NCBI GenBank assembly: GCA_903924465.1
Contig: CAIYBN010000120.1
Location: forward strand, 1 to 64,000
DNA: 64,000 nt
Origin: an uncultured Myxococcales bacterium
Lineage (GTDB): Bacteria; Myxococcota_A; UBA9042
Direction: 5' to 3'
Shown: positions 5,800 through 9,536 of the stretch, piece by piece
Layout of the letters: each line of letters begins with the position of its first letter
Numbering within the stretch: the first letter of the stretch is position 1
Translations under genes and position numbers: made by a program
Notes under the pieces: model-generated
Seen by the model: only the letters and a program-made list of their open reading frames with translations
Database searches by the model: none
Told to the model about the DNA's origin: nothing

Positions 5800-5987
5800 C
5801 GTGGGATGCCGTCGCCGCTCTCGGCGTCGTCGCTGGCGCGGTTGCCCTGCTGGTGTGGCAGATGCAGCGCGGGCAGCGCGTATGCGCGAAGTGTGAGGTG
5901 GTCGACGCGCAGAAACGCCTGAGGACGCAGCGTGTGGCGCGCAGATCCGTTGCGTCCCTGGGCATCGGCGGCGTCAGAAAGTCATGA
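5796..5987 (+). CDS. Small FeoB-associated-like membrane protein with CxxC
   Basis: ATGA overlap with feoB stop. MTWDAVAALGVVAGAVALLVWQMQRGQRVCAKCEVVDAQ...: one TM followed by a CAKC motif. Confidence 0.6.
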   Translation: MTWDAVAALGVVAGAVALLVWQMQRGQRVCAKCEVVDAQKRLRTQRVARRSVASLGIGGVRKS

Positions 5988-7113
5988 AACCCTGCAGCAG
6001 CAGGTTCACCTTGGACACGTTGCCAAAAGCCGTGCCGAACGACTGGGCGTAAATCGACGACGGATTGGACGTGATGGGCAGCCGCGCCGCAACGCCCAGG
6101 CGCACCGGGCCGGCGTGGAACCGCAGGCCGGCCGTTGCGAAGATATCCTGCATGGCCGGCGCGTTGTAGAGATTGACCAAGCCATCCAATTCGCCCACGA
6201 CGTCCAAAATCACGGCGCGAACGACGGTTGACACACCCCAGTTGCCATAGCCGACAGCCGAGTAGAGCGGATTGTCGCGCACCGCCTGCATGTGGGTAAA
6301 TTCCGCGCGGAGCATCAGGGTGAAAATCGACAACTGCCCGCCGATGATACCGTACGGCTGGATCGACAGGTATTCGTGCAGGTATTTGGGCAGCACGAGC
6401 GCATTGGACAGCGCCAGCACGTTGGCCTTCTGCGTGCCGGTCGGCAGGTACAGGGACACGCCACCGGTCCAGCCCAAGGCCGCGGTGTAGCCGGTCCGCG
6501 AGCCGGCGCGGAAGTCGAAATTCAGGTTTCCCAGTTCGAGCGAACTGTTCTCGGACGAGTAGAACGCCGCCAGCGGCAAGTACGCGGTCAAATCGTAGGT
6601 GCCAAAGTTGTATTCAAACCAGGGCTCCAGACCAAACGCCACAGCGTTGGACGGCGTCGCGGCCACCTGGGCGATATCCGCCACCGACTGGATGTTGCCC
6701 GGACTGATGTTGTCGATGGCCTTTTGCTGATCCGGCGTCGGCGTCACGCCCGCGCTCTTGAGATCGCCGTTGATCTGCGCCTTGGTCTGATCGACATTTT
6801 GCGCGACGGCCAGATCGTGCACGCGGGACGCATTGACGTTCTTCAGCACGGCGATCAAGTTCTTGGCGTCCGGATACTGCGCAGAAACCTTGTCCGCCAC
6901 TTGATCCAGCGCCTTCGCGGCGACCAGCGGCACCGGCGCGATGTGCAGGTTCACGCCCGCGGCGACCTTGCGGTCCTTCGACGACTGCCGCAGCGAATGG
7001 CCGGAGAACAAATCCACGTCGCGAAACGGCCGCGCCTCGTCGGCAAAGATCGGCAGCGCGGACAGCGCGAAGGCCGCCATCGTGACCAAAAAAGTGAGCG
7101 TGCGTGCGGCCAT
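5974..7113 (-). CDS. Secreted, putative outer-membrane beta-barrel protein
   Basis: Signal peptide 'MAARTLTFLVTMAAFALSALPIFA' and alternating amphipathic strands ending in ...LLLQGFMTF. Confidence 0.6.
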   Translation of the reverse strand: MAARTLTFLVTMAAFALSALPIFADEARPFRDVDLFSGHSLRQSSKDRKVAAGVNLHIAPVPLVAAKALDQVADKVSAQYPDAKNLIAVLKNVNASRVHDLAVAQNVDQTKAQINGDLKSAGVTPTPDQQKAIDNISPGNIQSVADIAQVAATPSNAVAFGLEPWFEYNFGTYDLTAYLPLAAFYSSENSSLELGNLNFDFRAGSRTGYTAALGWTGGVSLYLPTGTQKANVLALSNALVLPKYLHEYLSIQPYGIIGGQLSIFTLMLRAEFTHMQAVRDNPLYSAVGYGNWGVSTVVRAVILDVVGELDGLVNLYNAPAMQDIFATAGLRFHAGPVRLGVAARLPITSNPSSIYAQSFGTAFGNVSKVNLLLQGFMTF

Positions 7114-7194: not shown

Positions 7195-9021
7195 TCAGTG
7201 CGCTGGCGCCGCGCCGGCCAAGACCACGCCCAGCATGCGCGACACGTCGACCTGCATGTGCCACACGACAACAGCGCCTTCCAGTTCAACCCGCGACGTG
7301 GTCGGCGGCTGGACCAATTGCACCAGCGGATCGGTCGTGACGGTCGGACCCAGCGCCAGGCCCACTTCCTGCGACAACGCGTTGGCTTCGCGCGACAGAC
7401 TCGACCACTGCTGCGCGTCCGGATGATTCGGCCCGGCTGTCCGCGCTTGAATTTGCCACGCCTGCGCGAGCATACCCGCGAGGCGTCCCATCCGCCGCGC
7501 AAGCCCGGCGTCGCGCTGGGTGTCGCGCTGACGAATATCCGCCAGCCACGTTTCCAGACGGTCGCGCAGGGACGCGGCAGCTTCCTGCCCGCGACATTCC
7601 AGCCGCAGCGTCAAGTCCTTGTCATTCCACAACGCGACGCCGATCTTGACGTGCTGCGCCAGCGCGCCGCCCGGCAGCCAATGCGCCGTACCCTTGGAAT
7701 CCGCAGTCAGCGCCCACACCGGCCCGCTTCCCTGCAACGTTTGCAGCCGCTCCGCCATCACCGCATCGGCCGTCAGCCGCGGCACTTTGCCGGTCCGCAC
7801 ATCCATGAGCCGCGCCAACACCGTCTCGCGGCCCAGCCACAGCGTGCGTTTGCCCAGCGCCATGACCTGCCAGCGCACGCCACCATCCGCGAACGACAGC
7901 GTCCGCGCCGGCCCCGTTTGCGACACGGTCGCGTGCAGCTTGGCCCCCAACGCGTCGAGCTTGTTCTGCGCGGTGGTCGTGTCGAGCAACAGCGCCGCAT
8001 CGTCGCCTTCGCGAACCAGGAGCCACTGACCATCGGCGGGCTGCCACGCCTGGGCGCGCGCGAGACGGATGGGCGCCAGCAGGCGCGAGGTCTGGGCATC
8101 GGCCACGGACTGCATCTGCTCGGCGGCGGTCAGACGCAGACCGACGAGCTCCTGCACATCAGCCGGCACGTCGTTGATCACCGGCTGCTCGCGTTGCCGA
8201 AAAACCAGCGCTGTCGCAGCGACGGCGACAAGCGTCAGGACGATGGCAATCGGCACCAGCGCACGCTTGGACGCGCCCGGCTTGCCGCGGTTGTCGACCA
8301 GCCACGCGACGCCCACGCCCACGCCGTACAGGATCACCAGCGGCGCGGACATGATGGTCTGGTTGATCGGATCCGGAGTCGGCGTCAGCACGGCGCCGAT
8401 GATGAACGCGATGACGACCCAGTAGCGGTAGAAACTGAGGAAGCCGCGCCACGTGACCATCTCGAGCGCCGACATGACATACATGAAGAGCGGCAGCTCA
8501 AAGACAACGCCGAAGCCCACGAGCAGGAACAGGACGAAGCTGACGGAACCGGCGATTGTCGGCTCCAACAGCAGTCCCGGCGCTTCGAGTGTCATGCGAA
8601 TCAGGAAATCCGCCATGAACGGCAGCGCGACCAGATAGCAGAACAGCGCGCCCAGCGCGAAACAGCCGACACTGGCCACGACCACCGGCAGGATCAGGCG
8701 CTTTTCCTTGCCCAAAAGACCGGGCGCGATGAAGGCCCAGAGCTGCCAGAACACGAATGGACTGGCAATGAAAACGCCGCCGATGAGCGACAGCTTCATG
8801 TAGACTTCAATACTTTCCGTGATCGCCAGCGCCTTGATCACAAACAGATTATTCGCCGCCATGGCATCGCGGAGCGGCGCAGTCAAGATGGCGTACAGCT
8901 CGATGTGCCAGGCCCACGCCACGAAGAAGCCGACGAAGATCGCCAGCGTCGCTTTGAATACCCGCGAGCGGAGCTCGATCAGGTGCTCGCGAAAGGTCAT
9001 GCTGGCCGCTACTTCACTCAT
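7195..9021 (-). CDS. tatC: Sec-independent translocase TatC with ~360-aa C-terminal extension
   Basis: TatC core 'MTFREHLIELRSRVFKA...SPFVFWQLWAFIAPGLLGKEKR...FYRYWVVIAFIIGAVLTPTPDPINQTIMSAPLVILY'; extension follows residue ~245. Confidence 0.92.
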   Translation of the reverse strand: MSEVAASMTFREHLIELRSRVFKATLAIFVGFFVAWAWHIELYAILTAPLRDAMAANNLFVIKALAITESIEVYMKLSLIGGVFIASPFVFWQLWAFIAPGLLGKEKRLILPVVVASVGCFALGALFCYLVALPFMADFLIRMTLEAPGLLLEPTIAGSVSFVLFLLVGFGVVFELPLFMYVMSALEMVTWRGFLSFYRYWVVIAFIIGAVLTPTPDPINQTIMSAPLVILYGVGVGVAWLVDNRGKPGASKRALVPIAIVLTLVAVAATALVFRQREQPVINDVPADVQELVGLRLTAAEQMQSVADAQTSRLLAPIRLARAQAWQPADGQWLLVREGDDAALLLDTTTAQNKLDALGAKLHATVSQTGPARTLSFADGGVRWQVMALGKRTLWLGRETVLARLMDVRTGKVPRLTADAVMAERLQTLQGSGPVWALTADSKGTAHWLPGGALAQHVKIGVALWNDKDLTLRLECRGQEAAASLRDRLETWLADIRQRDTQRDAGLARRMGRLAGMLAQAWQIQARTAGPNHPDAQQWSSLSREANALSQEVGLALGPTVTTDPLVQLVQPPTTSRVELEGAVVVWHMQVDVSRMLGVVLAGAAPAH

Positions 9022-9536
9022 GCCGGCGGCACTTCCTCAGGTGGCGTTTCGTCGGGCGGGATCGCGGATTCGGCCAGGGCTTCCGGATGAACCGGCCAGG
9101 AGCCCATGCGTTCGCGAGCGCCATCGGCAGGTGTGATGACATACGGCGTCACCGGCGGACCCGGCGCGCGCGCCTCCTCGGACGGCGGCGCCCCACGCTT
9201 GGCCACCACAGCAATCGTTTCGCCATCGGCGTGCGACCCAAACGGCGGCGGCGGCGGGGCCGGCTTGTCCAAAGCGTCGTCGTCGGTCTGTTTGGGCAAA
9301 GTCGCGAGTTTGGCGTTCAGCTCCGCCTTGATTTTCGCTTCCGGCAATCGTTCCACTTCCCGCGCCAAATCGTTCATCGCCGACTGCAGTTCCGCCTGCG
9401 TCAGGTTGGCCATGCGCCGCAAATCGCGCAGCCCGGTGCCAACCGTCTTGGCGACCTGCGGCAGCTTGTCCGGTCCAACGAACAAAAGCGCGATGAGGAG
9501 GATGACGAAGAGTTCTGGTCCGCCGATGCCGAACAC
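9018..9536 (-). CDS. tatB: Twin-arginine translocase TatA/TatB family protein
   Basis: 'MFGIGGPELFVILLIALLFVGPDKLPQVAKTVGTGLRDLRRM'; ATGA overlap with tatC. Confidence 0.88.
   Translation of the reverse strand: MFGIGGPELFVILLIALLFVGPDKLPQVAKTVGTGLRDLRRMANLTQAELQSAMNDLAREVERLPEAKIKAELNAKLATLPKQTDDDALDKPAPPPPPFGSHADGETIAVVAKRGAPPSEEARAPGPPVTPYVITPADGARERMGSWPVHPEALAESAIPPDETPPEEVPPA

Follow-up and report, generated by a model that had tools for sequence, protein, structure and literature searches.

The tatBC locus

The stretch of DNA analyzed here (the window) comprises 64,000 nucleotides from an uncultured Myxococcales bacterium. Its minus strand carries a tatB gene followed by a tatC gene whose product continues past the TatC core through a seventh hydrophobic helix (TM7) into a C-terminal extension. 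The features of the locus are listed below, with residue numbers referring to TatC.

9018-9536, minus strand: tatB (172 aa; Pfam PF02416), immediately upstream of tatC with an ATGA overlap
7195-9021, minus strand: tatC, a single 608-aa ORF with an ATG start and 0 internal stops
8296-9000, minus strand: TatC core with six TM helices, residues ~8-242 (PF00902, TIGR00945, AF2 model compared with TatC structures)
8275-8295, minus strand: TM6-TM7 loop, short, within a K/R-rich stretch and predicted to be cytoplasmic, residues 243-249 (sequence, net charge)
8191-8274, minus strand: TM7, residues 250-277 (hydropathy peak; continuous helix in the AF2 model)
7795-8148, minus strand: extension subdomain 1, beta-alpha and then a beta-rich sheet, residues 292-409 (AF2 block pLDDT 62-93; cross-family similarity)
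7213-7713, minus strand: extension subdomain 2, with a long helical hairpin formed by 479-529 and 536-555, residues 437-603 (AF2 block pLDDT 43-91)
7660-7680, minus strand: conserved loop with the sequence WLPGGAL, residues 448-454 (its W, P and A do not vary among 21 members of the family)

The portion initially singled out (7195-8289) corresponds to TatC residues 245-608 plus the stop codon. Directly downstream of tatC, a 379-aa ORF (5974-7113, minus strand) begins like a signal peptide and has no match in Pfam. The genome from which the window derives encodes one more TatA/B gene, on a different contig, and a single TatC scoring above the cut-off. Across the class to which the bacterium belongs, a TatA/B-like ORF stops at most ~65 nt from tatC at 41 of 46 loci. 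The length of the TatB tail is highly variable among class members, with the stop lying 74 to 339 residues past the start of the motif.

The TatC core of the window protein is ordinary. It matches Pfam PF00902 over residues 12-227 with 192.4 bits (cut-off 25.1) and the tatC equivalog TIGR00945 with 171.5 bits (cut-off 132.7), and positions forming the TatC signature, such as H13, E16, P49, F97, E106, P216, D217 and Q221, are invariant or nearly so across the class. The AF2 model aligns with the TatC structures 4b4a, 4hts, 9e07 and 9e02, and its TM-score of 0.86 against 4b4a (by target length) supports the six-TM fold. By profile, modeled fold, signature residues and partner genes, the product is thus a genuine TatC, for which transport activity is predicted.

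TM7 and the C-terminal domain

TM7 (ALVPIAIVLTLVAVAATALVF) comes after TM6 and is separated from it by the K/R-rich loop NRGKPGASKR. The best 19 residues of the helix have a mean Kyte-Doolittle hydropathy of 2.69, and each of the 46 class sequences shows a similar one (mean 2.34, minimum 1.46), so the original prediction of a membrane segment beyond the usual six agrees with both hydropathy and the model. Beyond TM7 lie ~320 residues of folded domain. The full-length AF2 model was built from an alignment of 47 sequences, just three of which contain the extension, and as a single chain it reached a mean pLDDT of 78.7 and a pTM of 0.54. Confidence is highest in subdomain 1, where residues 311-400 have block pLDDT values of 79-93, and falls below 50 at residues 278-290 and over most of 431-448; it is also low at the WLPGGAL loop. 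A second run, on the extension only and with three sequences, performed badly (mean pLDDT 48.5). Helices and strands follow one another in largely the same order in the two runs, and the order of elements in subdomain 2 recurs in the extension-only run at low confidence. That subdomain 1 is folded is strongly supported.

Searches of Pfam, NCBIfam and PDB sequences with the extension gave no convincing match, and viral contigs yielded no relative. When the PDB was searched by fold, the full-length model matched at its TatC core and nowhere else, and the extension-only model gave no meaningful match. A PAD-like motif prompted a search for DUF3352 (PF11832), which was absent from the Pfam matches of two sets of 21 and 24 extension sequences at E-values up to 0.5.

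Conservation and origin of the extension

The same continuous frame recurs in the genus, in all four of its other genomes (87-91% identity), and elsewhere in the family (43-50% identity over full-length matches). Among 90 related genomes searched, the full-length protein was found in the genus and family, and other members of the class, which consists of uncultured, probably myxococcal bacteria, encode the TatC core within longer open frames. With the extension alone as query, the family and one other genome were matched clearly. A TatC match was obtained in 42 of the 46 class genomes that are at least 80% complete. This survey returns the length of the open frame and not the start or end of TatC, so the basis of the class-wide claim is the set of ORFs read. 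These are 46 sequences from 9 families, made up of 40 of the 42 TatC matches plus 6 from less complete genomes; three of them end prematurely at a contig end. Every one has the TM7 peak and 149-478 residues beyond the core, the shortest extensions (149-161 residues past the core) being those of two genomes of family f5. The matches outside this set (G020 and G024) stop at contig edges, and for G020 a piece of the extension was found on another contig. Four class genomes that are at least 90% complete (G022, G026, G027 and G029) gave no TatC match, which may reflect assembly gaps or genuine loss. In profile-profile comparison, the extension of the window's own family (f1) matches those of the other families with an E-value of 9e-7 and a probability of 91%, part of the match being TM7.

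Pairwise dN/dS over the extension was 0.07-0.22 in 10 of 11 pairs (dS was saturated in one of these); the most divergent pair reached 0.41. The corresponding values for the TatC core were 0.03-0.16. The extension is therefore under purifying selection, less tightly than the core. The fusion to TatC, the occurrence in every class sequence read, maintenance under selection and the extra hydrophobic helix are all strongly supported. The original claim of a real fusion is borne out by the single frame in independent genomes together with the ATGA overlap with tatB, and a folded, conserved domain is supported by a largely confident model, purifying selection and presence in every class sequence read. 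An extension that was disordered and not conserved was looked for as well, and both dN/dS and the model speak otherwise.

Outside the class the architecture was not seen. Among 80 TatC matches listed from a contig scan, two were relatives with the extension, and the 78 TatCs of other bacteria among those listed lacked the combination of TM7 and a domain; several of the latter have charged tails that are probably disordered. A survey of the phylum gave TatC matches in 224 of 237 genomes, most of which were simply counted. The 42 same-phylum TatCs from outside the class that were read, including several with the longest frames, have tails of at most 24 residues beyond residue 250. The extension is accordingly present in 0 of 120 TatCs read outside the class. 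A FastTree phylogeny of TatC cores split the 46 class sequences exactly from these 120 outsiders with a support of 0.908, which fits a single gain and vertical inheritance. TM7 and the C-terminal domain were thus probably added once, in an ancestor of the class, and passed on by descent.

Likely location of the domain and a partly related lipoprotein family

The termini of TatC are cytoplasmic, and one additional TM helix would therefore place the extension in the periplasm. Three further observations fit this location. The TM6-TM7 loop carries a mean net charge of about +2.5 over the 46 class sequences. Many extensions outside family f1 contain 2, 4 or 6 cysteines, an argument that does not apply to the window protein because the f1 extension has a single one. 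Lastly, the extension is partly related to a family of lipoproteins, designated A6. Several indirect lines thus agree with the periplasmic placement that had been proposed, and we consider the domain to be probably periplasmic.

The A6 lipoproteins (L202, L248-L259) are ~350 aa long, and a search of 13 genomes of family f5 recovered them from 12. They share ~80 residues with the extension (profile match, E 7.6e-5). With an A6 lipoprotein as query, reverse BLAST led back to the extension of TatC in three genomes of family f1 (E-values of 1e-6 to 3e-5, 36-42% identity), and profile-profile comparison with the f1 extension gave an E-value of 3e-4 at a probability of 40%. Over these comparisons ~80-130 residues matched, a part of the domain. 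Profile-profile comparison with the extensions of the other families gave no match. The A6 lipoproteins are free-standing, whereas the window extension is fused to TatC. The first A6 member had no match in Pfam or NCBIfam. The A6 gene at L202 (G046:C152:500-4500) adjoins a gene resembling succinyl-CoA synthetase beta.

Comparison with known TatC proteins

The TatC proteins of Aquifex aeolicus and E. coli (4B4A, 9DZZ) share the six-TM core and the protein families of the window TatC and resemble it in structure but lack both TM7 and the C-terminal domain. Cryo-EM has shown the Tat core complex to be a trimer of TatBC. The TatC of Myxococcus xanthus (PDB 9E03, 9E0S) has an ordered periplasmic insert in the TM3-TM4 loop that forms a homotrimer on (TatBC)3 and adds contacts between TatC subunits, and that of Nitratifractor salsuginis (PDB 9E02, 9E07) has a large, unrelated periplasmic insert that is reported to be disordered (PMC13323110). 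M. xanthus belongs to the same presumed phylum, and its TatC resembles the window protein in having an extra domain, which in the window protein is probably periplasmic. The positions differ, however: the M. xanthus domain is inserted in the TM3-TM4 loop, whereas the window domain is C-terminal and follows TM7. The N. salsuginis protein likewise has a large addition, as does the window TatC (again probably periplasmic), but its insert lies in the first periplasmic loop, between the positions of residues 56 and 72 of the window TatC, and not at the C terminus. The window core is continuous over residues 8-242, without a large loop insert, and a profile of the f1 extension matched neither 9e03 and 9e0s at E-values up to 5 nor the N. 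salsuginis TatC chains. A literature search, in which subscription journals were thinly covered, found no TatC with a C-terminal domain behind a seventh TM helix. The protein is best filed as a TatC variant with an accessory domain, probably periplasmic, in a C-terminal, TM7-anchored layout that is new relative to the literature searched.

Possible roles of the domain

The reading that we favor, to which we give about an even chance on the strength of this analysis, is that the domain caps or scaffolds the Tat core from the periplasmic side, either stabilizing it or docking a partner. As TatC assembles into (TatBC)3, three copies of the domain would come to lie on the trans face, where, as a cap or scaffold, they could steady the core complex or keep an envelope partner close. 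The trimeric insert in the TatC of M. xanthus, with no sequence match to the f1 extension, may act likewise and would be a precedent. Because the extensions range from ~150 to 480 residues, a single precise capping geometry is not common to all families, and the disordered insert of N. salsuginis indicates that a periplasmic domain of TatC need not be a structural cap.

The original prediction instead pictured a possible chaperone or quality-control module, which would take up folded substrates on their exit from the site of translocation. The probable position beside the export site suits such a module, and the WLPGGAL loop and the long helical hairpin of the f1 domain could touch clients. 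We nevertheless consider it unlikely: nothing in the analysis points to a chaperone specifically, the Pfam, NCBIfam and PDB searches revealed no similarity to any chaperone family, and the f1 domain in its entirety would not fit into the shortest f5 extensions. A tether or platform for docking that joins the translocase to a lipoprotein, a peptidoglycan-associated partner or secretion machinery would account for the strong sequence divergence between families, as expected of a partner-specific surface, and the sole relative found, A6, is a lipoprotein family of no assigned function. This too seems improbable, as no conserved partner gene was identified in a neighborhood comparison that covered tatB alone.

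TM7 itself could be what matters most, packing beside TM6 and altering the TatA/TatB site or the local membrane, with the soluble domain secondary. The helix is indeed found in every member read, those with short domains included, but purifying selection acts on the soluble part too, and its sequence is recognizably similar across families, which makes this reading very unlikely. The chance that the extension is an artefact (a missed frameshift, a chimeric assembly or a non-conserved read-through) is negligible. Nothing was found in its favor; a separate ORF hidden by a missed frameshift was looked for, and the identical continuous frame in independent genomes, under purifying selection, was found instead.

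Little is understood about the trans-side events of Tat transport. A bolder proposal makes the TM7-anchored domain a functional component of the translocase on its trans side, one that engages substrates or gates their release. We hold this to be distinctly unlikely; if true, the Tat system of the class would have a periplasmic component that the standard TatABC systems, that of E. coli among them, lack. Set beside the unrelated domains of M. xanthus and N. salsuginis, a conserved and probably periplasmic domain across a whole class suggests that TatC acquired such domains in more than one independent event, in this class at the C terminus behind TM7 and not by insertion into a loop. The domain of the class may offer a handle on whether it matters for transport that the periplasmic side of (TatBC)3 is stabilized or that a partner binds there.
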